DNA of 64,000 bases from Streptomyces europaeiscabiei. GTDB lineage: Bacteria; Actinomycetota; Actinomycetes; Streptomycetales; Streptomycetaceae. How positions within the stretch are numbered: the first letter of the stretch is position 1; each line of letters opens with the position of its first letter. Position numbers and translations under genes: made by a program. The notes under the pieces are model-generated. The model had not been told where the DNA came from. It did not search any database and saw only the letters and a program-made list of their open reading frames with translations. Shown one piece after another: positions 1,126 through 17,475 of the stretch. The stretch lies in the NCBI RefSeq assembly GCF_001550375.1, contig NZ_LRTR01000532.1, positions 1-64,000 on the forward strand. The letters run 5' to 3'.

Positions 1126-3960
1126 ATGTTCATGAGAATCAGGAGGGCTAAAGCCGCGCGTTGGCCGGCCATCGGTTCGGCTCTGCTCCTGGTCGCGGCC
1201 ACTCTCACCGCGACCTTGTCCAGTGCGACCCCGGCCTCGGCGCACCCGATCAACGCCGCCGACTTCCAGCAGGTCCAACTGGCCCGCGGTGTCGCGGAGG
1301 TCGGTGAGCCGATGTCGCTGGCCGTACTCGCCGACCGGTCGGTGCTGCATACCGCTCGCAACGGGACCGTGCGCCGCACGGAGGCCAACGGCACCACCAC
1401 GGTGATCGGCAACATCCCCGTATACGTGCACGACGAGGACGGCCTGCAGGGCATCGGCATCGACCCGGGTTTCGCCACCAACCGGCACATCTACCTCTAC
1501 TACGCCCCGCCGCTGTCCACACCAGGAGGCGACGCACCGACCACCGGCGGCAACTGGTCGGCGTGGCAGGGTGTCAACCGGCTTTCCCGGTTCACGCTCA
1601 ACGCCGACTTCACGCTCAACCAGTCCAGCAAAGTGGACATCCTCGACGTGGCGGCCGACCGGGGTATCTGCTGCCACGCCGGCGGAGACATCGACTTCGA
1701 CGCGGCAGGCAACCTGTACCTGTCCACAGGCGACGACACCAACCCGTTCGAGTCCGCCGGATATTCCCCGCTCGACGAGCGGTCCAACCGCAACCCGGCG
1801 TTCGACGCGCAGCGCACCGCCGCCAACACCAACGACCTGCGCGGCAAGATCTTACGAATCAAGGTGAACGAGAACGGGTCGTACTCGATCCCGGCAGGCA
1901 ACCTGTTCCCGCCCGGCACGGCCAGGACCCGGCCGGAGATCTACGCGATGGGCCTCCGCAACCCGTTCCGGATGAGCGTGGACAAGGCCACCGGCATCGT
2001 CTACGTCGGCGACTACGGCCCCGATGCCGGCGCCACCTCGGCGCGCGGGCCGCAGGGCCAGGTCGAGTTCAACCGCGTCACGGGCCCGGGCTTCTATGGC
2101 TGGCCATACTGCAACGGCACGAACACGAGCTCCGAGACGTACGCCGAGTGGGACTTCGCCACCAACACGGCAGGAGCGAAGTACAACTGCTCGGGCGGGC
2201 CGACGAACAACTCGTTCCGCAATACCGGCTTGAGTACGCTGCCCCCCGCCAAGGCTGCCTGGATCCGTTACGGCGGCGACGCCGGCAGCCCGCCGGCGTT
2301 CGGCGGCGGCTCGGAGTCGCCGATGGCGGGCCCGGTGTACCGGTACGACCCCGACGTCGGCTCGCCCACGAAGTTCCCGCAGTCGTTCGACGGGCAGTTC
2401 TTCGCCACGGAGTTCGGCCGCGGCTGGATCAAGCCGATCCACCTCAACGCCGACGGTTCCCCGGGGAGCATCGACAGCTTCCCCTGGACCGGCAAGCAGG
2501 TGATCGACTCGGCGTTCGGCCCGGACGGCTCCTACTACGTGCTGGACTACGGTGCCGGGCTGTACCAGGGCGACCAATACTCTGCCCTTTACCGTTTCGA
2601 CTACGTCGGCGGCGGCAACCGGGCGCCCACGGCGATGGCCGGCGCCAACCGGACCTCCGGCGCGGCGCCGTTGACCGTGACATTCTCCTCGGCCGGCTCA
2701 TCCGACCCTGACGGTGGGGCACTGACCTATGCGTGGAGCTTCGGTGATGGCACCACCTCCACCGTCGCCAACCCGACGAAGACGTACAACGCCAACGGCG
2801 ATTACACGGCCACGCTGACGGTGCGCGACCCGCAGGGTGCCACCGGCACCGCCGACGTGCGGATCACCGTCGGCAACACCGCGCCGACCGTGACCATCAA
2901 CAGCCCCACCGCGGGGGAGATCTTCGCCTTCGGCGACACCGTGCCGTTCAGTATCACCGTGACGGATCCGGAGGACGGCACGGTCGACTGCACCAAGGTC
3001 AAGCTGACGTACATCGTCGGTCACGACAGCCACGGCCACCCGATCACCTCGAAGACCGGTTGCTCCGGCACGATCACCATTCCGGTCGACGGTGAGCACG
3101 ACGACGCGGCGAACATCTTCGCGGTCTTCGATGCCGAGTACACCGACAACGCCGGGCTCACCACGCACAAGCAGCACATCCTGCAGCCGAAGCACCGGCA
3201 GGCCGAGCACTACAAGACATCGTCAGGCATCGCCACCTTGGACAAGTCGACCGCAGAGGGCGGCAAGTCCGTTGGTGACATCGAGAACGGCGACTGGATC
3301 GCATTCGAGCCGTACAAGCTCAGCAACGCCACGTCGTTCAGCGCCCGGGTGTCGTCAGCCGGCGCGGGCGGCACGTTGCAGGTTCGGGCCGGTTCGCCGA
3401 CCGGCACCGTCCTCGGCTCCGCCACCGTCCCGGTCACCGGCTCGTGGACGAACTTCACCACTGTCAACGGCTCGATCTCCGGTGCACCGGCCGGCACCAC
3501 CACGCTCTACCTGACCTTCACCGGCGGCTCCGGATTCCTCTTCGACGTCGACGCGTTCACCTTCAATCCCGGCGGCGGCCCGCCCACCCCCGGGGTGGGT
3601 CCGATCGTGGGGCTCGCGGGTAAGTGTCTGGATGTCCGTGACGGCGGCTCGGCGGATGGGACGGCGGTGCAGATCTCGTCGTGTACGGGCTCGGCGGGGC
3701 AGCGGTGGACGGTGGCGCCGGGGTCGACGGTCAAGGCGTTGGGCAAGTGCCTGGATGTCACCGGTAACGGGTCGAGAGTCCAGTTGTGGTCCTGCAACGG
3801 TGGCGCCAACCAGAACTGGCAGGCGTACCCGGACGGGTCGCTGCGCAACCCGCAGGCGGGCAAGTGCCTGGACGTGTCGGGCGCCAACTCGTCGGACGGC
3901 ACCCTCGTGTCCCTGTGGACCTGCCACGGCGGAGCCAACCAGAAATGGACCCTGCCCTGA
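1126..3960 (+). CDS. Secreted PQQ-type soluble sugar dehydrogenase-like protein with PKD, CBM6-like and ricin-lectin modules
   Basis: This 944-residue protein starts with a basic, then hydrophobic export signal ending near Ala39. Residues about 50-490 form a beta-propeller of the soluble glucose/sorbosone dehydrogenase type, with blade motifs such as GGDIDFDAAGNLYLSTGD and EIYAMGLRNPFRMSVD. A PKD domain follows (about 495-585), then an Ig-like and CBM6-like region (about 590-815), and a ricin-type beta-trefoil with three GKCLD..QxW repeats (about 822-944). The expected role is oxidation of a sugar or glycoside outside the cell while bound to polysaccharide; the substrate and cofactor cannot be read from sequence. 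The chosen ATG has AGGAAGGGG 11 bases upstream, and a second in-frame ATG lies six bases on. Only 29 bases separate it from the next gene, which suggests one transcript. Its last 390 bases are repeated exactly at the end of that gene. Confidence 0.88.
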   Translation: MFMRIRRAKAARWPAIGSALLLVAATLTATLSSATPASAHPINAADFQQVQLARGVAEVGEPMSLAVLADRSVLHTARNGTVRRTEANGTTTVIGNIPVYVHDEDGLQGIGIDPGFATNRHIYLYYAPPLSTPGGDAPTTGGNWSAWQGVNRLSRFTLNADFTLNQSSKVDILDVAADRGICCHAGGDIDFDAAGNLYLSTGDDTNPFESAGYSPLDERSNRNPAFDAQRTAANTNDLRGKILRIKVNENGSYSIPAGNLFPPGTARTRPEIYAMGLRNPFRMSVDKATGIVYVGDYGPDAGATSARGPQGQVEFNRVTGPGFYGWPYCNGTNTSSETYAEWDFATNTAGAKYNCSGGPTNNSFRNTGLSTLPPAKAAWIRYGGDAGSPPAFGGGSESPMAGPVYRYDPDVGSPTKFPQSFDGQFFATEFGRGWIKPIHLNADGSPGSIDSFPWTGKQVIDSAFGPDGSYYVLDYGAGLYQGDQYSALYRFDYVGGGNRAPTAMAGANRTSGAAPLTVTFSSAGSSDPDGGALTYAWSFGDGTTSTVANPTKTYNANGDYTATLTVRDPQGATGTADVRITVGNTAPTVTINSPTAGEIFAFGDTVPFSITVTDPEDGTVDCTKVKLTYIVGHDSHGHPITSKTGCSGTITIPVDGEHDDAANIFAVFDAEYTDNAGLTTHKQHILQPKHRQAEHYKTSSGIATLDKSTAEGGKSVGDIENGDWIAFEPYKLSNATSFSARVSSAGAGGTLQVRAGSPTGTVLGSATVPVTGSWTNFTTVNGSISGAPAGTTTLYLTFTGGSGFLFDVDAFTFNPGGGPPTPGVGPIVGLAGKCLDVRDGGSADGTAVQISSCTGSAGQRWTVAPGSTVKALGKCLDVTGNGSRVQLWSCNGGANQNWQAYPDGSLRNPQAGKCLDVSGANSSDGTLVSLWTCHGGANQKWTLP
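3571..3960 (+). repeat. 390-bp direct repeat, copy A (lectin module)
   Basis: This segment encodes the glycine-proline linker, the whole ricin-type lectin domain and the stop codon. By base-by-base reading it is identical to 5298-5687, including synonymous positions. It points to very recent duplication or gene conversion. Confidence 0.95.
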
Positions 3961-3989: not shown

Positions 3990-5687
3990 ATGCGCAGACA
4001 ACCCCGAATGCTGCTTGGTGGGGTGGCCACGACACTCGCCGCCCTGGCCCTCCTCGCGCAGCCCACACCCGTCAGTGCCGCGGACACGTCCTACGACGTC
4101 CTCGTGTTCTCCAAGACAGCCGGTTTCCGGCACGACTCGATCCCCGCAGGGATCCAGGCCATCCGCGACCTCGGCGCGGCGAACAGTTTCACGGTGACGG
4201 CCACGGAGGACGGCAACCACTTCACCCCCGGCAACCTGAGCCGTTACGAGGCGGTGGTCTTCCTCAACACCACCGGCGACGTTCTGAACGACGCCCAGCA
4301 GTCGGCGTTCCAGTCGTACATCGGCTCGGGCGGCGGCTTCGTCGGCGTCCACTCGGCCGCGGACACGGAGTACAACTGGCCGTTCTACGGCGATCTGGTC
4401 GGCGCCTACTTCGCCTCCCACCCCGCTGTCCAGCAGGCCAACGTCAAAGTGGAGGGGCGGGCGCACGCGGCGACCGCCCACCTGCCGCAGACATGGACCC
4501 GCACCGACGAGTGGTACAACTTCCGGACCAACCCCCGTACCACCGCGCGCGTGCTCACCACGCTGGACGAGTCGTCGTACTCGGGCGGCTCGATGGGCGC
4601 CGACCACCCGCACACCTGGTGCAAGACCTATTCGGGGGGCCGGTCCTTCTACACCGGCGGCGGGCACAGCCAGGCGTCGTACGCGGAGCCGGCGCTCCGG
4701 GCGCACCTGCTAGGCGGTATCCGGTACGCGGCAGGCCGGACCAAGGCCGACTGCCGGCCCGAGAACGGCTATACGGCCCTCTACAACGGCTCGACCACCG
4801 GCTGGTCGCAGGCCGGCCCAGGCGGCTTCACCAACTCGGACGCCACCCTCGCCTCGTACGGCGGCCTGGGCATGCTCTGGTACAGCGCCCGGCAGTTCAC
4901 CGACTACTCGCTGAAGCTGGACTGGAAGATGCCCGGCGACGACAACTCCGGTGTGATCGTGGGCTTCCCGCCGTCGAGCGACCCGTCGTCGGCACTGAAC
5001 AACGGCTACGAGGTCCAGATCGACGCCACCGACGCGCCTGACCGTACGACTGGCTCGATCTACGCCGTCAAGGCCCCGGACACGGCTGCCCGGGACGCGG
5101 CACTCAACCCACCGGGCGAGTGGAACACCTTCGAGTTGCTGGTGGAGGGCGAGCGGCTCCAGGTCTGGCTCAATGGCGTGAAGATCAATGACTTCACCAA
5201 CACCGACCCCGCCCGCTCGCTCGCCGGCCACGTCGGCATCCAGAATCACGGTACGGGGGACGACGTATCGTTCCGCAACGTCCGGATCAAGGAGCTGGGC
5301 GGCGGCCCGCCCACCCCCGGGGTGGGTCCGATCGTGGGGCTCGCGGGTAAGTGTCTGGATGTCCGTGACGGCGGCTCGGCGGATGGGACGGCGGTGCAGA
5401 TCTCGTCGTGTACGGGCTCGGCGGGGCAGCGGTGGACGGTGGCGCCGGGGTCGACGGTCAAGGCGTTGGGCAAGTGCCTGGATGTCACCGGTAACGGGTC
5501 GAGAGTCCAGTTGTGGTCCTGCAACGGTGGCGCCAACCAGAACTGGCAGGCGTACCCGGACGGGTCGCTGCGCAACCCGCAGGCGGGCAAGTGCCTGGAC
5601 GTGTCGGGCGCCAACTCGTCGGACGGCACCCTCGTGTCCCTGTGGACCTGCCACGGCGGAGCCAACCAGAAATGGACCCTGCCCTGA
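3990..5687 (+). CDS. Secreted ThuA-domain / 3-keto-disaccharide hydrolase (DUF1080) / ricin-lectin protein
   Basis: The ATG at 3990 follows AGAAGGGA at 3972-3979, giving 565 residues. An export signal runs to about Ala30. Residues about 32-250 are a ThuA-like (class I glutamine-amidotransferase fold) domain, with FSKTAGFRHDSIPAG and the late GADHPHTWCK motif. Residues about 258-433 match the concanavalin-like 3-keto-disaccharide hydrolase domain (formerly DUF1080): LYNGSTTGWSQ, NNGYEVQIDATD and VGIQNHG. The ricin-type lectin fills 442-565. ThuA proteins are linked to trehalose and keto-sugar use, and the second domain to cleavage of 3-keto glycosides. Combining both with a lectin suggests extracellular attack on an oxidised glycoside made by the neighbouring dehydrogenase. 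The gene lies 29 bases after that gene and ends at a strong terminator. The exact reaction is unproven. Confidence 0.88.
   Translation: MRRQPRMLLGGVATTLAALALLAQPTPVSAADTSYDVLVFSKTAGFRHDSIPAGIQAIRDLGAANSFTVTATEDGNHFTPGNLSRYEAVVFLNTTGDVLNDAQQSAFQSYIGSGGGFVGVHSAADTEYNWPFYGDLVGAYFASHPAVQQANVKVEGRAHAATAHLPQTWTRTDEWYNFRTNPRTTARVLTTLDESSYSGGSMGADHPHTWCKTYSGGRSFYTGGGHSQASYAEPALRAHLLGGIRYAAGRTKADCRPENGYTALYNGSTTGWSQAGPGGFTNSDATLASYGGLGMLWYSARQFTDYSLKLDWKMPGDDNSGVIVGFPPSSDPSSALNNGYEVQIDATDAPDRTTGSIYAVKAPDTAARDAALNPPGEWNTFELLVEGERLQVWLNGVKINDFTNTDPARSLAGHVGIQNHGTGDDVSFRNVRIKELGGGPPTPGVGPIVGLAGKCLDVRDGGSADGTAVQISSCTGSAGQRWTVAPGSTVKALGKCLDVTGNGSRVQLWSCNGGANQNWQAYPDGSLRNPQAGKCLDVSGANSSDGTLVSLWTCHGGANQKWTLP
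5298..5687 (+). repeat. 390-bp direct repeat, copy B (lectin module)
   Basis: Identical to 3571-3960. The shared stretch begins exactly at the GGGPPTP linker in both genes, so the module was copied as a unit with its linker. Recombination between the copies would delete 1.7 kb and fuse the dehydrogenase to a single lectin. Confidence 0.95.
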
Positions 5688-6156: not shown

Positions 6157-7650
6157 TCAGCGGTAGCCGGCGGCGACGATGTTGGCCTGCACCGCGCTCT
6201 CGGTTGCGTCGGACGGATATCCGGACACCATCGCGCCCTCGTAGAAGGTGCCGGCGCTGAGGTTCGCGCCGCCGCCGGGCTTGCAGCAGTCACCACCGCT
6301 GCCGAGGATGATGGCGCCCTGCTTCTTCATGGGGCTGTAGCCGGGCGGAAGCGCGCCGTCCCACAGCGTGGTCAGGCTTCCGGTCTGGCCGTTGCCACCC
6401 TTGAGCGCGAATCGGCTCGTCCCGTTGTTCTTCAACATCGCCGTCACGAACTTGCTGGTGAAGGCCCGCTGGTTCGTGTTCCAGGCCTGGCTGCCACCGG
6501 AGTAGAGCCCCCATTCGAGGTCCGCCTGGACCCATGGGCCGGTGCCGGAGCACCCGCCGAACCAGCACTGGGTGCTGAAATTGATCGCGTCCATCGCCCC
6601 GGCCGCGTCGGCCGCTCGGGTCGTCTCACTGTTGCCGTAGTCGAAGCAGCAGCCGCCGTTGACATGGGTGCCGCTGGTCACCATGTACATGCCTTCGGGG
6701 GCGCTGCCGGTCGGCACGCCGGTCAGGTGGCCGTCCCGCCAGTAGCTGTTGCCGGGGTTGATGTAGAGCGAGTAGGCCTTGCTGCCGCCGACCGCCAGCG
6801 ACTCCGACGTCGCGTTCGCCGGGCGGCTCTGGGGGGAGCCGGGCACCACACTCGATCCCTGGTACCACAGGTCGTTCCCGCGGCCGGATTGGTCGTAGAC
6901 GACGGTGACGACACAGGTGGTCCCCGCGCAGAACGAGTCCTGCGTCGTCGCGTCGGCGGTGCCGCCCGCGCTCAGGACGCCGATGTTCCGGGTCGTGCTG
7001 TCGGACGAGCGCCGGACCTGGTAGAGGTTTCCGTTGTAGGTGCCGTAGAGCGCTCGTGTGGTGCTGTGGGCTGCGATGCAGGGGGTGCCGCCCGAGGCGT
7101 AGATGTCACACGTGCCCGCGCCCCCTGGCACCGGAGGGTCCGTCGGCGGGGTCGGCGAGCTCCACTGCTGGTTGGTGCCGCCGTGGCAGGACCAGAGGGT
7201 GATTCTGGTGCCGTTGGCGGTGCCGCCGGCGTTGGCGTCGAGGCAGAGTCCGGACTGGACGCCGGTGATGGTGCCGTTGGGGTTGACGTTCCACTGTTGG
7301 TTGTTCTGGCCGTTGCAGTCCCAGATGACGACGGCGGTGCCGTTGGTGGTGCCGCGTCCGCTGGCGTCGAGGCACTTGCCGCCGGAGACGGTCAGTTGTT
7401 TGCCGGCGGTGTAGGTCCAGGTCTGGCCGGGCGCGCCGGTGCAGTCCCAGAGTTGGGTCTGGGTGCCGTTGGTGGTGCTGGAGCCGGGGACGGTCAGGCA
7501 GCGGCCGGACTGCGACCCCACGATGGGGGCGCTCTGCCCGGGCTCGATCGGTGCAGCCACCGCGGTGGCGCCGACGGCGACAAGCACCAGGGCGGCGCCC
7601 AGCGCGGACAGCCGTCCGTACCAACGGGGCCGAGGTATCCGAAACACCAT
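6157..7650 (-). CDS. Secreted alpha-L-arabinofuranosidase, GH54 (AbfB type), with N-terminal ricin lectin
   Basis: The protein has 497 residues: an export signal to about residue 33, a ricin-type lectin (42-165) with three QxW repeats, a short TP-rich linker, and a GH54 catalytic domain (180-497). The GH54 part is recognisable by CDIYASGGTPCIAAHSTTRA near its start, the CCFDYGNSE segment and ADLEWGLYSG, whose glutamate matches the family nucleophile region. GH54 enzymes release terminal arabinofuranose from arabinan and arabinoxylan. Fungal members carry a C-terminal CBM42; here an N-terminal lectin takes its place. The ATG at 7650 has GAGGAA just upstream. The lectin DNA is almost identical, in inverted orientation, to that of the gene at 17734-20115. 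It lies 71 bases after the gene at 7722-11282 on the same strand and may be co-transcribed with it. Confidence 0.9.
   Translation of the reverse strand: MVFRIPRPRWYGRLSALGAALVLVAVGATAVAAPIEPGQSAPIVGSQSGRCLTVPGSSTTNGTQTQLWDCTGAPGQTWTYTAGKQLTVSGGKCLDASGRGTTNGTAVVIWDCNGQNNQQWNVNPNGTITGVQSGLCLDANAGGTANGTRITLWSCHGGTNQQWSSPTPPTDPPVPGGAGTCDIYASGGTPCIAAHSTTRALYGTYNGNLYQVRRSSDSTTRNIGVLSAGGTADATTQDSFCAGTTCVVTVVYDQSGRGNDLWYQGSSVVPGSPQSRPANATSESLAVGGSKAYSLYINPGNSYWRDGHLTGVPTGSAPEGMYMVTSGTHVNGGCCFDYGNSETTRAADAAGAMDAINFSTQCWFGGCSGTGPWVQADLEWGLYSGGSQAWNTNQRAFTSKFVTAMLKNNGTSRFALKGGNGQTGSLTTLWDGALPPGYSPMKKQGAIILGSGGDCCKPGGGANLSAGTFYEGAMVSGYPSDATESAVQANIVAAGYR
7162..7512 (-). repeat. 351-bp inverted repeat, copy A (lectin module)
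   Basis: The lectin-coding segment of the GH54 gene. Its reverse complement matches 19753-20103 with about seven mismatches by eye (roughly 98 percent) and no gaps. Confidence 0.9.
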
Positions 7651-7721
7651 GGCGGTTCCTCACGGGTTCGTAGAGAGGGATGCCCGGCGCGCGACCGCGC
7701 CGGGCATCCCGTCCGGACGGG

Positions 7722-10700
7722 TTAGACGGCGGTGAACCGCCACTGTTGGTTGGTGCCGCTGTGGCAGCTCCACTGCAGGAGTCGTGCGCCGTCGGCCGTC
7801 GAGCCGCCGTTGACGTCGACACACAGTCCACTGGGGAGGCTTTTCACCGTATACACGCCCACCGTGGTGGACGGTGTGACGAGGAACTTCTGCGGCTGGC
7901 CGTTGTCGCAGGTGGATTGCTGCAGGAACGCGCCCTGGGCGGTGGAGCCGCCCGCGACGGCGAGGCACTTGTCGCTGTGCACCGCCTTCAGGTAGACGGC
8001 GCCGCCACCGGCGTCGACGGCCTGCCACTTCTGGTTGTTGGCGCCGTTGGCCGGCCACTGGACGACCTGGGCGCCATCAGCGGTCGAGGCGCCGTTGACG
8101 TCCACGAATTTGCCGCTGTGCTGCGCTGCGACCGTCCAGGTCCGACCGGCCACGCCGTCACCACCACCACCACCGCTGCCCGGTTCGCCGACCCCGTTGC
8201 CGCCGAAGGTGAGCGAGTCGAGGTCGAACCAGTTGTTCGAGGTGCCCTTGAACACCAGGTAGAGCGGGTGCGAGCCGGAGAGATCGGCTGTGTTCACCGC
8301 CTGCGTGGACTGGTAGGTGTTCCAGCCGCCGGTGCTGGGCACCGGTGTCGTGGCCAGGAGTGTGCCGGTCGGGGAGTCGGCGCGCAGTTCGATCGATCCG
8401 CCGCCGCTCGGCGACGACAGGCGGTAGCGCACGCTCGTGACGCCCGACAGGCTCATGGGTTTGAACGAGATCCAGTCGCCGTCGGAGATGTTGCCGACTC
8501 GCTTGCCGCTCTCCGCGCCGGCCTGCTCGACGATCTGCACACCCGACTGGTCCGTGTAGAACTCGGCCTGCTTGTGCTTGGGCTGGAGGATCGCCTGGGC
8601 GTAGCCGGTGAGCGGGTTCGCACCGCCGGGGCCGCCGTCGTCGGTGTAGCGGGCGTTGAGGACGTAGTACAGGTTGGCGCCGTCGGGGTGCCCGCCCAGC
8701 AGCGTCGTGTCGATGGTGCCCGAGCACCCCGGATGGTCCGTGGTCTCGTGCTGGTGGTCGTCGTGGCCGAGAGCTGGGTTGACGAACACCTTGGCGCAGT
8801 CGATGGGCGCGCCGCCGGGATCCGAGACGGAGACCTTGTACGGGACGCGGTCACCGAAGTCCAGCATGCCGCCGTTGGACGGAATCGTGAGGGTGACGAT
8901 CGGTGCGGAGTTGCCCACGGTGATCGGCACGTTGGCGAAGGCCGTCTTGCCGGTGTTGTCGGTGACCTTGAGCTGGGCGGTGTAGTTGCCGTTGGCGGTG
9001 TAGGTGTGTGACGGGTTGGCCGCCGTGGACGTGGTGCCGTCGCCGAACGTCCAGTGGTGGCTGAGCGTGTTACCGGGATCCGGGTCCGTGGACCCCGCGC
9101 TGCTGAACTGCACGTTCAGTGGCGCGTTCCCGTTGGTGGGCGTTCCGGTGGCTTTGGCGATCGGCGACCGCCCGCCGTGGTTGTAGTCGATGCGGTAGAG
9201 CCCCGAGTCGTTGTTGCCACCGGAGAAGTTGTTGCCCCATTCGAGCAGGTACAGCGAGCCGTCGGGCCCGAACTCCATGTCCATCGGCTTGAGGAACTTG
9301 GCGGCGGGCATGAAGGGGTTGGTCCGGGTGACCGCGGTCGCGGAGTCGAAGTGGACCTCCTTGACGGTGTGGCGCGACCACTCGTAGAAGAAGTGGACCC
9401 CGTCGTAGTAGGGCGGGAACTTCGTCTCGGACGGGTTCGCGGCGTCGTAGCGGTAGACCGGTCCGCCCATCGGCCCCGAGCCGCCGGAGCCGAGTTCGGG
9501 GAAGTTCGGTGAGACGCCGTAGCCGTACCACATGTTCGGCGCGACGATCGGCTTGAGGCTGGTCAGGCCGGTGTTGTTCGGCGAGTTGTTGACCGGCGCG
9601 TTGCAGTTGAACTTGGCGCCGACGACGCCGGTGCTCGGGTTGTAGGGCGCGTAGGCCTGGTTGTCGCCGTGGCAGAACGGCCAGCCGTAGTTGCCCGGGG
9701 TCTTGATGACATTGAGCTCGACGAGCCCTTCGGGGCCGCGGTTGGTCGTGGGCGGGTTCCGGTCCGGGCCGTAGTCGGCGAGGTAGACCCACCCGTTGTC
9801 CGGGTCGATCGAGAAGCGGAACGGATTGCGGAAGCCCATCGCGTAGATCTCCGGCCGGGTCTGCGCCGTGCCCTGCGGGTAGAGGTTGCCGGCCGGGACG
9901 GTGTAGCCGCCGTCGGCCGACGGCCGGATGCGCAGGAGCTTGCCCCGCAGGTCGTTGGTGTTGCCGGCGGTGCGGGCGGCGTCGAGGTTGGCCTTGCCCG
10001 ACCGCCAGTCCAGCGGGGCGTAGCCCTGCCAGTTGGAGTCGAGGTTCGGTGGGACGTCGTCCCCGGTACCGATGTAGAGGTTCCCGTCGGGGCCGAACTC
10101 GATGTACCCGCCCGTGTGCCCGGGCTCGGCGAAGGTGCGGTCCCGGGTCGCGGGGATGTCGATGATCGTCACCTGGCTCGACATGTTCAGGGTGTCGCCG
10201 GTGAGCGTGAACCGGGAGACCCGGTTGATGTCGTTCGGGACTCCGGCCGGGGAGTGATACAGGTACACGTAGCCGTTGTCGGCGAAGTCGGGGTCGAGCG
10301 CCAGTCCGGTGAGGCCGTCCTCGCCGCCGGTGTAGACGCTGAGCGTGGCGGCTGTCACGGTCCTGTTGGTGGTCGGTTTGAAGATCTTCAGTTGCCCGCC
10401 CCGCTGGACGTAGAGCACCCGCCCGTCCGGGGCGACCGCGAGGGCCATCGGGTCCGCGGTGTTGTCGTCGAGGGTGCGCTTCTCGAAGTTGCTCCACACG
10501 GTGCCGCCGCAGTCGCCGGGCTCCTTGCCGGCCGCCCACTTGACGCCCCCGAGGACGTGGTTGCGGAAATGGGTCTCGCTGTAGGCGGCGCTGGTGTGCC
10601 CCATGCCGGTGGCCCACACGCGACCGCCGCCGGTGTTGCGGCACCAGGAGATGGGGTGGTCCGGCCCCATGGCGCGGGAGCCCGGGTTGTACGTGCGCTC

Positions 10701-11282
10701 GTCCGCGGTGACCAGGACATGGACGTCGCCGCGGGGGTTGCGGTCGAAGTTGTACCACTCCTCGCTGCGGTTCCAACGGTCCGGCAGGCCGGCCGTCGAC
10801 GGGTGCTTCTTGTCCGCGACGATCGCGGTGCCGGACAGCACGCCGGGGGAGTGCTCCGGCATGTGCGCGCCGCCGTTGATGGTCTGGTCCCACCACGGGT
10901 ACTCGTTCTCGATGCCCATGTCGGTGGCGTTGTGGATCGCGACGATGCCCTTGCCGCTGGCGAGGTAGCCCTCCAGCGCCTGACGTTGGGCCGCCGTGGT
11001 CCACACCATTCCCGAGGTCTGGAACATGATGAGCACGTCGAAGGTGGCGAGGTTCGCCGGGGTGAAAACGCTCGAGTCCTCGCTGTGGACCAACTCGAAG
11101 TCGTTGGCCGCCGCCTGCTCCCGGAACATCGTGAGGCCGGCAGGGATCGAATCGTGCCGATAGCCGGTTGTCTTCGTGAAGACCAGGGCTCGGAAGGCCG
11201 GCGCCGCTGACGCCGGTTGGGCTACGACGAGCGACAGGAGCACGCTCGCGATCACCCCGAAGATAAATATGATGCGACGCAT
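7722..11282 (-). CDS. Secreted five-domain protein: ThuA, sugar dehydrogenase propeller, PKD, CBM6-like, ricin lectin
   Basis: Starting at the ATG at 11282, with AGGAGA about five bases upstream, the protein has 1186 residues. A short export signal ends near Ala27. Residues 28-252 form a ThuA domain (VFTKTTGYRHDSIPAG; GPDHPISWCR). Residues about 263-650 are a soluble sugar dehydrogenase propeller (GGYIEFGPDGNLYIGTGDD; EIYAMGFRNPFRFSID). A PKD domain (about 690-770), a CBM6-like region (about 895-1035) and a ricin-type lectin (about 1048-1186) follow. It thus fuses the activities encoded separately by the genes at 1126 and 3990. ThuA plus dehydrogenase in one chain suggests that the oxidised sugar is passed directly to the second domain. 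It faces the RbsABC-type operon across a regulatory region. A longer in-frame upstream reading exists but lacks a signal peptide and was rejected. Confidence 0.88.
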   Translation of the reverse strand: MRRIIFIFGVIASVLLSLVVAQPASAAPAFRALVFTKTTGYRHDSIPAGLTMFREQAAANDFELVHSEDSSVFTPANLATFDVLIMFQTSGMVWTTAAQRQALEGYLASGKGIVAIHNATDMGIENEYPWWDQTINGGAHMPEHSPGVLSGTAIVADKKHPSTAGLPDRWNRSEEWYNFDRNPRGDVHVLVTADERTYNPGSRAMGPDHPISWCRNTGGGRVWATGMGHTSAAYSETHFRNHVLGGVKWAAGKEPGDCGGTVWSNFEKRTLDDNTADPMALAVAPDGRVLYVQRGGQLKIFKPTTNRTVTAATLSVYTGGEDGLTGLALDPDFADNGYVYLYHSPAGVPNDINRVSRFTLTGDTLNMSSQVTIIDIPATRDRTFAEPGHTGGYIEFGPDGNLYIGTGDDVPPNLDSNWQGYAPLDWRSGKANLDAARTAGNTNDLRGKLLRIRPSADGGYTVPAGNLYPQGTAQTRPEIYAMGFRNPFRFSIDPDNGWVYLADYGPDRNPPTTNRGPEGLVELNVIKTPGNYGWPFCHGDNQAYAPYNPSTGVVGAKFNCNAPVNNSPNNTGLTSLKPIVAPNMWYGYGVSPNFPELGSGGSGPMGGPVYRYDAANPSETKFPPYYDGVHFFYEWSRHTVKEVHFDSATAVTRTNPFMPAAKFLKPMDMEFGPDGSLYLLEWGNNFSGGNNDSGLYRIDYNHGGRSPIAKATGTPTNGNAPLNVQFSSAGSTDPDPGNTLSHHWTFGDGTTSTAANPSHTYTANGNYTAQLKVTDNTGKTAFANVPITVGNSAPIVTLTIPSNGGMLDFGDRVPYKVSVSDPGGAPIDCAKVFVNPALGHDDHQHETTDHPGCSGTIDTTLLGGHPDGANLYYVLNARYTDDGGPGGANPLTGYAQAILQPKHKQAEFYTDQSGVQIVEQAGAESGKRVGNISDGDWISFKPMSLSGVTSVRYRLSSPSGGGSIELRADSPTGTLLATTPVPSTGGWNTYQSTQAVNTADLSGSHPLYLVFKGTSNNWFDLDSLTFGGNGVGEPGSGGGGGDGVAGRTWTVAAQHSGKFVDVNGASTADGAQVVQWPANGANNQKWQAVDAGGGAVYLKAVHSDKCLAVAGGSTAQGAFLQQSTCDNGQPQKFLVTPSTTVGVYTVKSLPSGLCVDVNGGSTADGARLLQWSCHSGTNQQWRFTAV

Positions 11283-11944: not shown

Positions 11945-13456
11945 ATGTCTGGCCTGCCGCCGTCGCTGTTGCTCGCTCTGCGAGGCATCGGCAAGTCGTT
12001 CCTCGGCGTGCGGGTGCTCGATGGCGTCGACCTCCAGGTCCGGCCGGGCGAGGTGCACGCGGTCGTCGGCGAGAACGGCGCCGGCAAGTCCACGCTCATG
12101 AAGGTGGTGTCCGGCGTCCACCAACCCGACGAGGGAACGGTCGAGTTCGCCGGCGCACCGCGGACGTTCCGCAGCCCGCGTGAGGCCCGACAGGCCGGTA
12201 TCGGCATCGTCTACCAGGAGCTGACCCTGCTGCCCGAGCGCACCGTCGCGGAGAACGTCTGTCTGGGCCGCGAGCCCCTGCGCCGCGGACTCGTCGACCG
12301 CAGGGCGATGCTCAGCCACACCGCGGGGCTCCTCGCCTCGATCGGGGAGGGCTCGTTACCGCCCGACACGCGCGTGGGACGACTCGGCGTGGCGCAACAA
12401 CAGGTGGTCGAGGTCGTCAAGGCGCTCGCCCTCGACGCCCGGCTGCTCATCATGGACGAGCCCACCGCGGCTCTCGCCGACCACGAAGCCGACCAGCTCT
12501 ACGCGCTCGTACGGCGGCTGCAGGAGCACGGGATAGGCGTGCTGTACGTCTCGCACCGCCTCAAGGAGGTCTTCGACCTGTCCAGCCGGATCACCGTGCT
12601 CAAGGACGGCCGGGCGGTGGCCACCTTGGACACCGCGGACACCAGCGCCGATCAGCTGGTGCGCCACATGGTCGGCCGCGAGCTGTCGAGCTACTACCCC
12701 GGCCCGGCGAAGCCGCAGGAGTTGGGCCCGGTGCGGCTGACCGTCCAGGGCGGAGGCAACCGGAAGCTGCGCGGCATCGACCTACGGCTGCGCGCTGGCG
12801 AGGTGCTCGGCGTCGGCGGCCTGCAGGGCTCCGGCCGGTCGGCGCTGGCTCGCGCACTGTTCGGCGCCGCACCGTTCGGCACCGGCCAGGTGACCGTCGA
12901 CGGAGCGCCGGTCCGGCTGCGCTCGCCCCGCGCCGCGATGCGGGCCGGTATCGCCTACGTCTCCGAGGACCGCAAGGGCGAGGGGATCGTCGCCGAGCAG
13001 TCGGTGCTCGACAACGCGCTGTTGGCCGGCCGCGCCGTCCGCCCGGGCTGGGTCGGCCGCGGTGCCCGGACCGCGCGGGTCCGGGAGCTGCTCGCGGCCG
13101 TTGAGCTCCGCGCCGCCGGGGAGGACCAGGAGATCCGTTTCCTGTCCGGGGGCAACCAGCAGAAGGTCGTACTGGCCAGGTGGCTCGCGCTCGCCCCGAG
13201 GATCCTGCTCTTCGACGAGCCGACCCGGGGCATCGACGTGGGCGCCAAGTCGGCGATCCACGATCTCGTCCGCCGACTGGCCCGCGACGGCGCCGCCGTG
13301 CTGATGGTCTCGTCCGAGCTGCCCGAGCTGCTCGGCATGAGCGACCGGATCATCGTCATGCGCGACGGCCGGATCGCCGGCGAACTATCCGCAGGAGCGA
13401 CAGAGGAGAATGTCCTCGCCCTGGCGGTCGGCACCGCGCGGGAGGCGGCCGGATGA
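11945..13456 (+). CDS. Sugar ABC transporter ATPase (RbsA/XylG type, two nucleotide-binding domains)
   Basis: 503 residues with two ATPase halves, as in ribose and xylose importers. The N-terminal half has Walker A GENGAGKST and Walker B LLIMDEPTAAL. The C-terminal half has a degenerate P-loop region (GGLQGSGRSALA), signature LSGGNQQKV and Walker B LLFDEPTRGIDVG. It powers import of a monosaccharide through the two permeases that follow. The ATG has GAGGGT about seven bases upstream. The stop overlaps the next start (ATGA), so the genes are translationally coupled. It heads a five-gene operon: ATPase, permease, permease, binding protein, epimerase. Confidence 0.95.
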   Translation: MSGLPPSLLLALRGIGKSFLGVRVLDGVDLQVRPGEVHAVVGENGAGKSTLMKVVSGVHQPDEGTVEFAGAPRTFRSPREARQAGIGIVYQELTLLPERTVAENVCLGREPLRRGLVDRRAMLSHTAGLLASIGEGSLPPDTRVGRLGVAQQQVVEVVKALALDARLLIMDEPTAALADHEADQLYALVRRLQEHGIGVLYVSHRLKEVFDLSSRITVLKDGRAVATLDTADTSADQLVRHMVGRELSSYYPGPAKPQELGPVRLTVQGGGNRKLRGIDLRLRAGEVLGVGGLQGSGRSALARALFGAAPFGTGQVTVDGAPVRLRSPRAAMRAGIAYVSEDRKGEGIVAEQSVLDNALLAGRAVRPGWVGRGARTARVRELLAAVELRAAGEDQEIRFLSGGNQQKVVLARWLALAPRILLFDEPTRGIDVGAKSAIHDLVRRLARDGAAVLMVSSELPELLGMSDRIIVMRDGRIAGELSAGATEENVLALAVGTAREAAG

Positions 13457-14424
13457 GCGGCGCGCTGTCCCTGCCGACCCGGCGGACTCCGCCCGGCGTG
13501 TTCGTCGCCCTGGTCCTCACCCTGGCGATCGGTTGGCTCGTCGTCACGGTCGATGGCGGCCGGCTGTTCAGTGTGCCGACGACGGTGAGCCTGCTGCACG
13601 TCGCCGCCGGTCTGGGCCTCGTCGCGGTCGGCCAGACGCTGGTCGTCGTCGGGGGCTCGCTGGACCTGTCCGTGGCGTACGTGGTCAGTCTGAGCACCCT
13701 CGTCGCCGCCGAGACCATGGCCGGTGACGACGGTGCGCTGCTACCGGCGATCGGCCTGACGCTCGCCGTCAGCAGCGCGATCGGCCTTGTCAACGGCCTG
13801 CTCGTCACGACAGCGCGGATCAACCCCTTCATCGCGACCGTCGGCGTCGGGCTGCTGCTGAAGGGATACCTCGACAACGGATACGACGGCCCGGCCGGCA
13901 AGACCGCACCCGCCCTGGTGCAGGGCCTGGGGTATCAGCGCATCGGCCCGGTGCCGGTGTCGTTCCTGCTGCTGCTCGCCGTCGCCGCCGCGGCCTGGTT
14001 CGTGCTGGCGCGCACCCGCTTCGGCCACCACCTGATCGCCGTGGGCGGTGACCCGGAGGTCGCCCGGCTCTCCGGTGTGCGGGGCAGCCGGGTCCTCGTC
14101 ACCGCCCATGTGCTGTGCGCCCTCTGCGCCGGCCTCGCCGGGGTCTATCTCGCCAGTCGGCTCGGCGCCGGCGCACCAAGGGTGGGCACCGAGGGACTGT
14201 ACGACCTGGAGTCGATCGCCGCGGTGGTGCTCGGCGGCACCGCCCTGGCCGGCGGGCGCGGCGGCGTTGTCGGCACGGTCGGCGGCGTACTGCTGCTCGC
14301 GAGCATCGACGCCATCTTCAACCAGCTCGAGGTCGACGTGTTCTTCAAGCAGGTGATCCGAGGCGTGATCATCATCGCGGCGGTCGCCGTCTACGCCCGC
14401 CGGGCGATGCGAAAGGCGTCCTAG
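13453..14424 (+). CDS. Sugar ABC transporter permease (RbsC family), first
   Basis: 323 residues starting at the ATG that overlaps the ATPase stop. The chain is mostly hydrophobic with about eight to ten membrane segments. It holds the family signature region GGSLDLSVAYVVSL near residues 60-75 and GGDPEVARLSGVR in the cytoplasmic loop. It forms half of the transmembrane channel with the next gene product. Having two different RbsC-like genes suggests a heterodimeric channel, unlike the ribose system, which uses one permease. Confidence 0.93.
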   Translation: MSGALSLPTRRTPPGVFVALVLTLAIGWLVVTVDGGRLFSVPTTVSLLHVAAGLGLVAVGQTLVVVGGSLDLSVAYVVSLSTLVAAETMAGDDGALLPAIGLTLAVSSAIGLVNGLLVTTARINPFIATVGVGLLLKGYLDNGYDGPAGKTAPALVQGLGYQRIGPVPVSFLLLLAVAAAAWFVLARTRFGHHLIAVGGDPEVARLSGVRGSRVLVTAHVLCALCAGLAGVYLASRLGAGAPRVGTEGLYDLESIAAVVLGGTALAGGRGGVVGTVGGVLLLASIDAIFNQLEVDVFFKQVIRGVIIIAAVAVYARRAMRKAS

Positions 14425-14425
14425 C

Positions 14426-15397
14426 ATGCGGATCGCGCGCCCACCGCGGCTCCTTGAGTTCCGCTCCGGCGGTCTCGCACCGATCATCGTGATCCTGGCG
14501 GTGTTGCTGATTCTGCTGACCGCCCGCCAACCGGACTTCCTCTCGCCGCCGTCGCTGATGTCCTTCCTCGGCCGCTCCGCGCCGATCGTCCTGCTCGCCG
14601 CCGGCCAGTACTTCGTGATCGTCTCCGGCGAGTTGGACCTGTCCGTCGGCTCTCTGGTCACCGCGCAGGTGGTCATCGCCGCCCGGCTGATCGACAGCGA
14701 TCCGTCGGCCGGCTGGCCCGTCGTCGTGCTCCTGCTCGCGTTCGGCATCGCCGTCGGCCTCGTCAACGGCCTCGTCACCACGCGGCTGCGGGTGCCGTCG
14801 TTCATCACGACCCTCGGGATGTTCCTGATCCTCGTCGGTGCCGTGTACCTGTGGTCCAACGGTGCCCCGAAGGGCGGCCTCTCCGAGGAGTTCCGGCGGC
14901 TCGGTCGGTCGGGGTTCGAGGACGTGCCCGCGCTGGGCCGGATACCGTACGCCCTGGTCATCCTGCTGGCGGCGGCCGCTCTTGTGCTGGTGCTGACGCG
15001 TTCGGACTTCGGCCGCACCCTGGTCGCCGTCGGCGGCAACCCGCGGACCGCCGAGCTGAGCGGCGTGCGTGTGTGGCGCGCCAAGACCATGGCGTTCGTC
15101 CTCAGCGGACTCGCCGCCACACTCGCGGCGGTCCTCATCGGCGGGTACGGCGGAGTGTCGTTCCAGGCCGGTGCCGGCCTGGAGTTCGGCGCGATCACCG
15201 CGGCGGTCCTCGGCGGTGTCGCTCTGGGCGGGGGCCGCGGTTCGGTCGTCGGCGCGATGCTGGGCGCGCTGACCCTCGAGACGCTCTTCACGCTCATGAA
15301 CTTCTACGGCGTCTCCGGCGCCCTCAAACCGACCGTACAGGGCGCGATCATCCTGTTCGCCGTGGCGGCGGCGTCCTTCCGTCTCCCGTCCAGATAA
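14426..15397 (+). CDS. Sugar ABC transporter permease (RbsC family), second
   Basis: 323 residues, starting one base after the previous stop. Membrane-spanning throughout, with SGELDLSVGSLV and GGNPRTAELSGVR as the family landmarks. It should pair with the first permease in the same complex. The C terminus is short (RLPSR) and the binding-protein gene begins ten bases later. Confidence 0.93.
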   Translation: MRIARPPRLLEFRSGGLAPIIVILAVLLILLTARQPDFLSPPSLMSFLGRSAPIVLLAAGQYFVIVSGELDLSVGSLVTAQVVIAARLIDSDPSAGWPVVVLLLAFGIAVGLVNGLVTTRLRVPSFITTLGMFLILVGAVYLWSNGAPKGGLSEEFRRLGRSGFEDVPALGRIPYALVILLAAAALVLVLTRSDFGRTLVAVGGNPRTAELSGVRVWRAKTMAFVLSGLAATLAAVLIGGYGGVSFQAGAGLEFGAITAAVLGGVALGGGRGSVVGAMLGALTLETLFTLMNFYGVSGALKPTVQGAIILFAVAAASFRLPSR

Positions 15398-15407
15398 AGG
15401 GGATTCA

Positions 15408-16592
15408 GTGAGGCATTCCATGACGGTGCTGGCCGTGAGCACCTTACTGGTGCTGGCCGGCTGCGCCACCGACGAGCCCACCACCGGCGCATCGAGGTCG
15501 CCCTCCGCGGGCACCGGGTCGGGCACGGGGGAACAGTCGAAGTTCTTCGTGCAGGCCGACTACGACAAGCAGCTCGCGCTCCTGGACGCCGCGCCCACCG
15601 GGCCGGCCGACAAGCCCTGGGAACAGGCGCTCAACCCGGCGATGGTGGAGACCGCGAAGTTCACCAAGCCCGGACCGTACAAGATCTGTTTCTCCAACGC
15701 GGGGCTGAACAACCCCTGGCGCCAGGTCGGTTTCAAGACCATGCAGGCCGAGGTCGACACGCACCGCGGCCGGATCTCCGAGTTCGTCCACGTCGATGCC
15801 GAAGGCAAGGACCAGAAGCAGATCGCCGACATCAACGACCTGCTCGGCAAGGGCTGCCACGCGCTCATCGTCTCGCCGAACACCACCGCGACGCTCACCC
15901 CGGCCGTGGAGGCCGCCTGCCGGAAGGGCCTACCGGTCATCGTCTTCGACCGCGGCGTCGACACGACCTGCCCGGTGACGTTCATCAACCCGATCGGCGG
16001 CTACGGATTCGGCCACGTCGCGGCGGAGTTCGTCACCCAGAAGATGAAGCGCGGTGGCAAGGTGCTCGCGCTGCGCATCCTGCCCGGCGTCGACGTGCTG
16101 GAGACCCGTTGGTCCGCGGCGAAGGTCGCCTTCGACAAGGCGGGCGTCGACGTCGTCGGCGTCGAGTTCACCGACGGCGACCCGGCCAAGACGAAGAAGA
16201 TCGTCAACGACTACATCCAGCGGTACGGCACGATCGACGGCGTCTGGATGGACGCCGGGGCGGTCGCGGGCGCGGCGGTCGAGGCGTTCGAGGACGCCGG
16301 CAAGCCCGTGCCGCCGATCAACGGCGAGGACCAGCTCGACTTCCTGAAGCTGTGGAAGGACAAGAAGCTCACGGCGATCGCCCCGACCTACCCGACCTAC
16401 CAGTGGCGCACCCCGATCATCGCCGCCCTGAAGGTCCTTGACGGCGAGCAGGTGCCGAACCCGTGGAAGCTGCCTCAGCCGACCATCACCCAGGACAACC
16501 TGGACGAGTACGTCGACGCCACCATGCCGCCGCTGCACTACGCGATGTGCGGCTGCACCGACCTGCCCGGTTACCCGCGGCGCTGGAAGTAG
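15408..16592 (+). CDS. Sugar-binding lipoprotein of the RbsABC-type transporter
   Basis: A GTG start at 15408, preceded by AAAGGGG, gives 394 residues. The N terminus is a lipoprotein signal with lipobox LAGC at residues 16-19, then a serine/glycine/threonine-rich tether. The mature part has the type 1 periplasmic-binding fold: KICFSNAGLNNPWRQVGF at the first strand, LIVSPN and VIVFDRGVD in the middle, and DGVWMDAGAVAGAAVEAFEDAG later, as in ribose and autoinducer-2 binding proteins. It is held on the outer face of the membrane and hands substrate to the two permeases. The ligand cannot be told from sequence; the neighbouring epimerase hints at a ketose or keto-sugar. Confidence 0.92.
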   Translation: MRHSMTVLAVSTLLVLAGCATDEPTTGASRSPSAGTGSGTGEQSKFFVQADYDKQLALLDAAPTGPADKPWEQALNPAMVETAKFTKPGPYKICFSNAGLNNPWRQVGFKTMQAEVDTHRGRISEFVHVDAEGKDQKQIADINDLLGKGCHALIVSPNTTATLTPAVEAACRKGLPVIVFDRGVDTTCPVTFINPIGGYGFGHVAAEFVTQKMKRGGKVLALRILPGVDVLETRWSAAKVAFDKAGVDVVGVEFTDGDPAKTKKIVNDYIQRYGTIDGVWMDAGAVAGAAVEAFEDAGKPVPPINGEDQLDFLKLWKDKKLTAIAPTYPTYQWRTPIIAALKVLDGEQVPNPWKLPQPTITQDNLDEYVDATMPPLHYAMCGCTDLPGYPRRWK

Positions 16593-16596
16593 TTCG

Positions 16597-17475
16597 GTGT
16601 ACACCATCGGTGTCAACCCGTGGGTCTGGGCCTCGCCGGTCGACGACGAGGCCATGGCCGAGCTGGTACCGCGGATCGCGGCGTTCGGTTTCGACGCGGT
16701 CGAGCTGCCGATCGAGCAACCCGGCGACTGGGACCCGGCCCGCACCCGGGACCTGCTGGCGGCGTACGGCCTGCGCGCGGTCGGCGTCTGTGCGGTCACC
16801 TCGCCCGGACGTGACCTCGTGAACGCCCCGCCGGAGGTCGTCGCCTCCACCGTGGCGTACCTGCGGACGTGTGTGGACAGCGCGGTGGCCGTCGGCGCGC
16901 CCTGCGTCGGCGGCCCGGTCTACGCCGCGGTGGGGCGGACCTGGCGCATGTCACCGGTGGAGCGCGCGGCCTGCTACGCGGACGTCCGCCGCGCCCTGCG
17001 GCCGGTAGCCGACTACGCGGGGGAGCGGGGTGTGAGCATCGGCGTGGAGGCCCTCAACCGCTATGAGACGAGCGTCGTCAACACGGTCGAGCAGGCGGTG
17101 GAGCTGATCGACGGCCTGCCCGCGAACGTCGGTCTCATGATCGACACCTATCACATGAACATCGAGGAGGCCGACCCCTACGAGGCGCTCGGCACGGCTG
17201 GTCCGCACATCAAGCACGTCCAGGTCAGCGGCACCGACCGCGGCACCCCGGGGGCCGACCACTTCGACTGGCCACGCTTCCTCGCCCGCCTGGCCACGAC
17301 GGGCTACGGCGGCGCGGTGTGCATCGAGTCGTTCACCGCGCAGAACGAGGCCATCGCTACCGCGGCCTCGATCTGGCGGCCGCTCGCCCCGTCGCAGGAC
17401 ACGCTCGCCCGTGACGGGCTGTCCTACCTCCGAACTGTCCTCCGCGGACTGGAAAACGCTCCCTTGACCGGGTGA
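16597..17475 (+). CDS. Sugar isomerase/epimerase, D-tagatose/D-psicose 3-epimerase-like
   Basis: A GTG at 16597, four bases after the binding-protein stop and with GGAAG just upstream, gives 292 residues. It is a TIM-barrel protein of the xylose-isomerase-like (AP endonuclease 2) superfamily. The metal and catalytic positions of ketose 3-epimerases are all visible: glutamate in VEALNRYE, aspartate and histidine in MIDTYHMNIEE, histidine in IKHVQVSGTDRG and glutamate in CIESF. Such enzymes move a proton at C3 of free ketoses, and relatives act on keto-sugars from 3-keto glycosides or on inositol intermediates. As last gene of the operon it probably acts on the imported sugar in the cytoplasm. 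The precise substrate is unknown. Confidence 0.85.
   Translation: MYTIGVNPWVWASPVDDEAMAELVPRIAAFGFDAVELPIEQPGDWDPARTRDLLAAYGLRAVGVCAVTSPGRDLVNAPPEVVASTVAYLRTCVDSAVAVGAPCVGGPVYAAVGRTWRMSPVERAACYADVRRALRPVADYAGERGVSIGVEALNRYETSVVNTVEQAVELIDGLPANVGLMIDTYHMNIEEADPYEALGTAGPHIKHVQVSGTDRGTPGADHFDWPRFLARLATTGYGGAVCIESFTAQNEAIATAASIWRPLAPSQDTLARDGLSYLRTVLRGLENAPLTG

Follow-up and report, generated by a model that had tools for sequence, protein, structure and literature searches.

Streptomyces europaeiscabiei contig NZ_LRTR01000532.1 encodes, on the minus strand between positions 7722 and 11282 of the 64,000-nucleotide stretch analysed here (positions 1 to 64,000, the window), a secreted protein of 1186 residues, P0001, in which a ThuA domain is joined to a sugar-dehydrogenase propeller of the GSDH type and to carbohydrate-binding domains. 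We found that ThuA is genetically linked to one subtype of this propeller, strongly in the genus and only partially in other phyla, and that the two domains have been fused repeatedly. Together with the conserved residues and conserved neighbouring genes, these observations are consistent with a secreted, carbohydrate-anchored two-step enzyme, in which oxidation to a keto-glycoside would be followed by processing by ThuA, exit of the electrons via a further domain (C3), import of the sugar and its epimerisation. We give this proposal a little less than an even chance.

ThuA and one propeller subtype, fused and split

The P0001 frame runs uninterrupted from its ATG at 11282 to the stop at 7724-7722, has a purine-rich stretch just 5′ of the ATG and begins with a signal-peptide-like N-terminus; the plus-strand reading of the same interval is interrupted by stops. 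The open reading frame (ORF) and a Pfam search confirmed the description, given in an earlier note on this DNA, of one chain with ThuA, propeller, PKD, CBM6-like and lectin domains, and a further immunoglobulin (Ig)-like domain was found between PKD and CBM6, beyond that domain list. The domain matches, which are far beyond chance, place the parts as follows:

7722..11282, minus strand: fused secreted protein P0001, 1186 residues, with signal peptide, ThuA, propeller, PKD, Ig-like His-cluster domain, CBM6 and ricin-type lectin (Pfam, ORF and model)
10533..11192, minus strand: ThuA domain, residues 31-250 (PF06283, conserved residues)
9183..10493, minus strand: six-bladed GSDH-type propeller, residues 264-700 (PF07995, fold match of the model)
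8931..9167, minus strand: PKD domain, residues 706-784 (Pfam PKD_4, 2e-20)
8574..8924, minus strand: Ig-like domain C3, residues ~787-903, with H840, H843, H845, H865 and C829/C853 (alignment, model)
8205..8570, minus strand: CBM6, residues 905-1026 (Pfam CBM_6, 9e-32)
7740..8147, minus strand: ricin-type beta-trefoil lectin, residues 1046-1181 (RicinB_lectin_2, 1e-36; Ricin_B_lectin at 1051-1181, 9e-19)

The ThuA match covers the full PF06283 profile (positions 1-209; 4e-63, 213.8-217 bits against a curated cut-off of 33.4), and the GSDH match (PF07995, residues 277-541; 8e-35, 121.1 bits against a cut-off of 25) covers profile positions 3-227 of 332 only. The structure predicted for residues 29-1030 from 75 aligned sequences (75 of the 92 listed stretches) had a mean predicted local distance difference test score (pLDDT) of 90.2 and a predicted template modelling score (pTM) of 0.86. 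A CDtoxinA match on P0001 (21.5 bits, cut-off 22) was taken as a beta-trefoil resemblance.

It had also been claimed that this chain unites what two plus-strand genes of the window encode separately:

1126..3960, plus strand: split paralogue GSDH-PKD-C3-CBM6-lectin (Pfam)
3990..5687, plus strand: split partner ThuA-PF06439-lectin (Pfam)

This holds for ThuA, the propeller, PKD, C3, CBM6 and the lectin. However, PF06439, the 3-keto-disaccharide hydrolase family, matches gene 3990 (4e-39) and is absent from P0001 itself, so that P0001 unites only part of what genes 1126 and 3990 encode.

The occurrence of the two domains was examined in a sample of 23 genomes of the genus, in which 85 GSDH places were sorted by the extent of the Pfam profile match. 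All 48 propellers of the short-profile subtype had a same-strand ThuA no more than 5 kb away, and 36 had PF06439 as well, compared with none of the 34 ordinary, full-profile GSDH places for ThuA (0/34) or PF06439 (0/34) and none, for either, of three other GSDH places. This count used 85/85 GSDH, 80/80 ThuA and 44/64 PF06439 rows; the 20 PF06439 rows left out had E-values of 4e-7 or weaker, some of them passing the cut-off, and no GSDH place of their own contigs was nearer than 6 kb (57 of the 85 GSDH places re-entered). ThuA also occurs without a propeller, 32 of the 80 ThuA places in the same 23 genomes lying more than 5 kb from any GSDH; stand-alone ThuA matches of equal score are found on two contigs of genome G000, C555 and C724, which may reflect a duplicate or a repeat in the assembly. 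Hence, the expected co-occurrence of fused and split forms was borne out, every subtype propeller having ThuA beside it or within its chain, and the functional link between ThuA and the dehydrogenase that had been proposed from the fusion is well supported, both by the contrast with ordinary GSDH and by the repeated fusion. One of the two domains presumably uses the product of the other.

The 48 subtype loci fell into three arrangements. Eight, in five genomes, are fusions as in P0001 (type I); 26 are of type II, in which propeller-PKD-C3-CBM6 is followed by ThuA, with PF06439 in 22 of them; and in the remaining 14 (type III) a ThuA-propeller protein, mostly of ~850 residues, is followed by a PF06439 protein. 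Seven of the 26 type II loci form a single frame, propeller-PKD-C3-CBM6-ThuA-PF06439 (one of them confirmed by Pfam), in which ThuA is C-terminal to the propeller, and in types I and III it is N-terminal. Since both domain orders are seen, the fusion probably arose more than once. A chain of 2603 residues in Georgenia also holds ThuA, propeller and PF06439, so that PF06439 takes part in two kinds of triple fusion, the type II single chain and the Georgenia chain.

The ThuA and propeller of P0001 are 43% and 46% identical, respectively, to those of the split paralogues, which suggests that the fused gene is an old paralogue and not a recent joining of neighbours. A recent joining of genes 1126 and 3990 is excluded by these identities together with the tree neighbours, as the fused gene lies nearest to other fused genes in the ThuA tree and in the propeller tree alike, and the split pair mostly to other split genes. 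Distances in the ThuA tree correlated with those in the propeller tree, with values that include shared species history: the Mantel r was 0.92 for 27 separate-gene pairs (0/500 permutations as high) and 0.82 over 135 pairs (0/200), but only 0.48 when restricted to the seven type II rows with a single chain (16/500). These FastTree trees serve grouping only, with long branches flagged and some 'alone' labels being a product of the ORF-pairing rule; types I and II were clustered in them, though not cleanly, the ThuA tree needing 5 and 8 changes and the propeller tree 7 and 9.

The fusion is not specific to this strain, and a strain-specific accident is ruled out by its occurrence across the order and in named genomes. 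In an order-level survey, 291 of 293 genomes had some match to P0001, many to single domains, and at least 41 of the listed matches span ThuA to CBM6 in one match, at ~95%, 65% and 46% identity, four of them with an inner stop flag. A scan of named genomes gave 80 loci, with ThuA and propeller in one frame in 80/80, a figure that shows spread, not frequency, as the query was itself fused. The loci come from Streptomyces, to which the closest named relatives of the P0001 gene belong, from Micromonospora, Actinoplanes, Nonomuraea, Saccharothrix, Kribbella, Georgenia and others, and from metagenome-assembled genomes labelled Pirellulales and Acidimicrobiaceae; the fusion is also present on plasmids of Paenibacillus cellulosilyticus and Haladaptatus pallidirubidus. 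Among relatives outside the genus, L196 and L203 are fused and ThuA is the next gene at L194. Fusions of ~1800-2600 residues at L107, L100, L121 and L130 have extra domains matching DUF1349 and GH43_C2, with FIMAH in two. In the open-access literature, searched by titles and the starts of abstracts and with subscription papers mostly outside the search, there was no description of a ThuA-propeller fusion.

Conserved residues and the His-cluster domain

The propeller of the P0001 model (residues 235-675) was most similar to 3a9g (30% identity) and 2ism (31%), both at Z 40.9, and the entries for soluble glucose dehydrogenase (sGDH) gave Z 32.8-34.6. H389 and R485/N486 align with sGDH H144 and R228/N229, which we take to be the catalytic His and R/N pair. 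The propeller and ThuA alignments each comprised 27 of 39 stretches, with fused and split forms together. H389, R485/N486, E321, RGP and GxxGWP were kept in all 27 propeller rows and the Glu after RGP in 26/27, and in ThuA the residues H43, H117, D121, H144, H160, E175, Y177, H209, W213, C214 and H229 were invariant (27/27). Residues of active-site type are thus retained in both domains, whether fused or split.

The C3 stretch at ~787-903 (~115 residues) matched no Pfam family at E 0.01 and carries a conserved motif, GHDxHxH...H. In an alignment of 71 of 94 stretches, H840, H843 and H845 were present in 71/71 copies, H865 in 70/71, and C829 and C853 in 67/71 each; the 130 C3 copies collected include repeats of the window's own gene, shorter C3 matches being left out. 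The predicted structure of C3 (pLDDT 87.3, pTM 0.81) is an Ig/PKD-like sandwich. Among the fold matches listed, most were PKD/Ig-like sandwiches (best Z 9.8), which identify no metal, and the sequence profile had a single match below E 0.3 among solved structures, the Ig domain 9kvu (1e-5).

A CxxCH-bearing stretch interrupts C3 in six proteins, one from Runella, four from one planctomycete-phylum genome (G392) and one from Gemmatirosa, and the His motif is absent from all six; the Runella insert is a Pfam cytochrome c, and one of the six is the ThuA-fused L196. The type III propeller proteins gave no C3 match, and all 14 of their PF06439 partners (L153-L166) carry a type-1 copper (cupredoxin) motif, CTIPGHxxM, by motif search, a cupredoxin similarity search having aligned other stretches in 10/14. 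Pfam gave a Copper-bind match on the one type III partner scanned, and the Haladaptatus fusion has one as well (2e-6). As another electron carrier is often present where the His cluster is missing, we read C3 as a putative electron-transfer domain. Its four-His cluster is predicted to hold a redox metal or haem; the ligand may be copper or haem b, or the metal may be purely structural.

At the haloarchaeal locus L149, a second propeller with cupredoxin-type matches (6513-9161) lies just upstream of the ThuA fusion, and a multicopper oxidase gene and a sugar phosphate isomerase/epimerase gene are nearby.

Neighbouring genes and the proposed route

The fused gene is flanked by a glycosidase gene and by a divergent set of genes for sugar import and conversion:

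6157..7650, minus strand: lectin and GH54 alpha-L-arabinofuranosidase, next gene on the P0001 strand (PF09206, 2.5e-138)
11945..13456, plus strand: ATPase of a CUT2-type sugar ATP-binding cassette (ABC) importer (AraG, xylose and RbsA ATPase models of NCBIfam match best, all under cut-off)
13456..14424, plus strand: ABC permease 1 (PF02653)
14426..15397, plus strand: ABC permease 2 (PF02653)
15408..16592, plus strand: sugar-binding protein of the ribose-binding-protein type (PF13407)
16597..17475, plus strand: xylose-isomerase-like TIM barrel, ketose 3-epimerase-like (GTG start inferred)

The CUT2 importer is complete, with an ATPase, two PF02653 permeases and a PF13407 binding protein, and the three parts that were scanned reached no equivalog cut-off. 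A full importer set was present in the flanks of 44 of the 80 fused loci, on the same strand in 27 and divergent, as the importer and epimerase-like genes are here, in 17. A PF01261-like gene flanks 46/80, and in 25 it is the immediate upstream neighbour on the same strand, a count whose gap rule omits a few genes with long overlapping frames. The best solved relatives of the 16597-17475 product were D-tagatose 3-epimerases (7e-46), and it scored below the D-psicose 3-epimerase equivalog cut-off (124 bits against 300); PF01261 was confirmed by Pfam on three upstream relatives of this gene (L068, L130 and L082), and sugar phosphate isomerase/epimerase genes also occur at haloarchaeal loci. The isomerase/epimerase-type proteins of Agrobacterium presumably belong to PF01261. 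They act as a 3-keto-glucoside beta-eliminase and, on preliminary evidence, as a hydratase, according to passages of PMC10628242. No ThuB-type cytosolic dehydrogenase was found among the part of the window's ORFs that was scanned by Pfam.

Between 6157 and 47117 there is a run of secreted glycosidase-type genes, in which a ricin-type lectin was found, N-terminally in some and C-terminally in others, on 8 of the 10 ORFs scanned (GH54, GH141-like, GH5, GH95, GH62, GH10 and two others). The lectin-bearing GH5, GH95, GH62 and GH10 genes make the setting look like one of plant cell-wall breakdown. A pyridine nucleotide transhydrogenase-type gene (AlaDh_PNT domains) lies inside this cluster at 37311-38870.

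Given this setting, the propeller might serve mainly as an electron source for a copper-dependent lytic polysaccharide monooxygenase (LPMO) on the plant cell wall, as the fungal AA12 pyranose dehydrogenase does, with ThuA as an accessory that acts on the oxidised sugar or in product removal. P0001, with its CBM6, lectin and possible redox domain, does stand among GH54, GH62, GH10, GH5 and GH95 genes, and parallels are described in passages of PMC4133262, where CcSDH combines a propeller binding pyrroloquinoline quinone (PQQ) with cytochrome b and a cellulose-binding module, and of PMC12055684, where Teredinibacter GSDH-cytochrome c-CBM proteins are likened by the authors to the LPMO-activating AA12 enzyme. 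However, such a role gives no account of the presence of ThuA and PF06439 with this propeller subtype but not, in the genus, with the ordinary one, and it leaves the importer and epimerase-like neighbours unexplained; we consider it unlikely.

In the two-step route that we prefer, CBM6 and the lectin would anchor the enzyme on a plant polysaccharide, its putative substrate. The propeller, a relative of the soluble PQQ sugar dehydrogenases that may itself use PQQ, would oxidise a hydroxyl of the terminal glycosyl residue, most likely at carbon 3, to give a keto-glycoside, on which ThuA, in the chain or encoded by an adjacent gene, would then act by elimination or hydrolytic cleavage, or in a directly following step. 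PF06439 of the neighbouring gene would perform the same class of step. Electrons from the reduced cofactor would leave via C3, in which relatives from Bacteroidota and Gemmatimonadota and from one planctomycete genome have a cytochrome c segment instead of the His cluster. The CUT2-type importer would take up the released sugar, and the PF01261-type enzyme would epimerise or hydrate it inside. The idea of a keto-glycoside comes from the ties of PF06439 and thuAB to 3-keto sugars: passages of PMC9007349 describe the PF06439 protein BT2157 as a 3-ketotrehalose hydrolase, and a Caulobacter member of the family as important for lactose use, with a proposed 3′-ketolactose hydrolysis together with lactose 3-dehydrogenase, and the title of Ampomah 2013, cited in PMC10433430, links thuAB to 3-keto derivatives of trehalose and maltitol.

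Several points weigh against this proposal. The positions of sGDH K377, R406 and R408, which we take to be PQQ contacts, are replaced in P0001 (opposite Ala, Lys and Met in the profile), so that its propeller is classed, on fold and family score, as a relative and not as a proven PQQ sGDH. We know of no activity for any protein with the P0001 architecture. A search of the genome for PqqE gave no match above the cut-off, with weak matches also in all 14 controls, and PqqC gave no match there or in any control, which makes this a weak absence; if so, PQQ would come from outside the cell. The replaced contacts and, as far as these weak tests go, the missing PQQ synthesis genes would suit a propeller that binds, or catalyses differently, without being a dehydrogenase, the whole protein being a carbohydrate-binding scaffold or a hydrolase. 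The Hedgehog-interacting protein, which is not known to be an enzyme, has the same fold (Z 33.2). This we regard as very unlikely, as the catalytic His, the R/N pair and the RGP and GxxGWP motifs are kept in every propeller row, and the Glu after RGP in all but one, and as the cytochrome c or cupredoxin modules of relatives argue for redox chemistry. Moreover, the fungal CcSDH is without several PQQ residues and yet binds PQQ with a Kd of 1.11 nM, according to passages of PMC4133262.

Further points concern ThuA and the order of the steps. According to a passage of PMC11501099, one study deleted BT2157 or BT2158 singly and saw no growth defect on sugars of the raffinose family. The term 'ThuA-like' is in use in the polysaccharide deacetylase literature. 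ThuA might act first, on a poly- or oligosaccharide (e.g., by cleavage or deacylation), and the propeller might then oxidise the freed sugar to a sugar acid or a ketose for import, an order to which we assign a low probability. Aldose or glucose dehydrogenases, which usually oxidise carbon 1, make up the solved relatives of the propeller, a point against the two-step proposal. Two of them, 2g8s and 3das, are named aldose sugar dehydrogenases, which would fit this order, as would the similarity of the PF01261-type neighbour to ketose 3-epimerases. However, PF06439, with its tie to 3-keto sugar cleavage, lies in the same operons or chains, and thuAB is, by the title quoted above, tied to 3-keto derivatives, both of which favour oxidation before cleavage.

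The remaining points concern how widely the parts occur together. ThuA was not found in the stretches examined around the Runella, Halocatena and Gemmatirosa propellers, nor in those around L193, L195, L197-L202, L205, L211 and L212, several of which are short. PF06439 was found in the flanks of only 15 of the 80 type I loci, by a search with the window's own domain only, which may miss distant members, and 36/80 were without the full importer set, some of them on short contigs. After the CxxCH insert, the C3 profile is weak: L193 scores 23 bits and four others 7-10 bits, and Runella, read by eye, gave no match. Six planctomycete-phylum proteins of greater distance have a C3-like domain without either motif; a contig end truncates one of them.

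A bolder claim, which we think possible but doubtful, is that these proteins form an overlooked class of extracellular oxidative glycosidases, in which the quinone-propeller would make 3-keto-glycosides on plant polysaccharide, ThuA of the same chain (sometimes also PF06439) would cleave them, and a four-His metal or haem b site in C3 would replace the covalent cytochrome c of homologues in other phyla. If the two-step inference is right, bacteria would have a secreted oxidise-then-cleave route for glycosides beside hydrolases, lyases and LPMOs. This would place secreted ThuA in a biochemical context, assign a function to a large propeller subfamily that is uncharacterised, and add a new domain for electron transfer. 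What ThuA does also becomes directly testable through the repeated fusion, with the product of the propeller in the same chain, and the consistent pairing in relatives points to an overlooked extracellular breakdown of plant sugars.

Comparison with known systems

The fungal AA12 enzymes CcSDH and CcPDH are, like P0001, secreted propellers, there with an electron-transfer domain and a cellulose-binding module; unlike P0001, they are fungal, carry cytochrome b (AA8) and CBM1 and are without ThuA. P0001 does not share this architecture, having no cytochrome domain by Pfam and CBM6 instead of CBM1, and AA12 propellers match it less well than the bacterial aldose dehydrogenases do (6h7t, Z 30.2; 6jt5, Z 28.7). 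The Teredinibacter proteins are also secreted GSDH proteins with redox and CBM domains, and the passages of PMC12055684 that describe them mention neither ThuA nor a His-cluster domain.

The soluble PQQ aldose sugar dehydrogenases 3a9g, 2ism, 2g8s and 3das and the sGDH 1cru share with P0001 the six-bladed propeller (Z 32.8-40.9), the catalytic His and the R/N pair, and the Glu of P0001 at the sGDH Q76 position is found in 2ism and 3a9g. P0001 differs from them by the replaced K377, R406 and R408 positions, by long insertions and by the tie of its subtype to ThuA throughout the genus sample. The ThuA-like Bacteroides structures 4jqs and 4pxy have the ThuA fold (4jqs against the P0001 model: Z 25.2, root-mean-square deviation 2.3, 220 residues), but with Phe in place of the His of the DHPISWC motif, and the entries are named putative ThuA-like, with no function given.

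The 3-keto-glycoside routes, namely rhizobial thuEFGKAB, Bacteroides BT2156-2160 and Caulobacter LacABC with DUF1080, likewise combine ThuA and/or PF06439 with a sugar dehydrogenase, and the thuEFGK importer and the isomerase/epimerase-type enzymes of related operons have parallels among the window genes. Unlike in these routes, the oxidation would be extracellular in the case of P0001, a propeller fused to ThuA, CBM6 and a lectin replacing ThuB or LacABC. Hence, P0001 would represent a variant of the known 3-keto-glycoside route.

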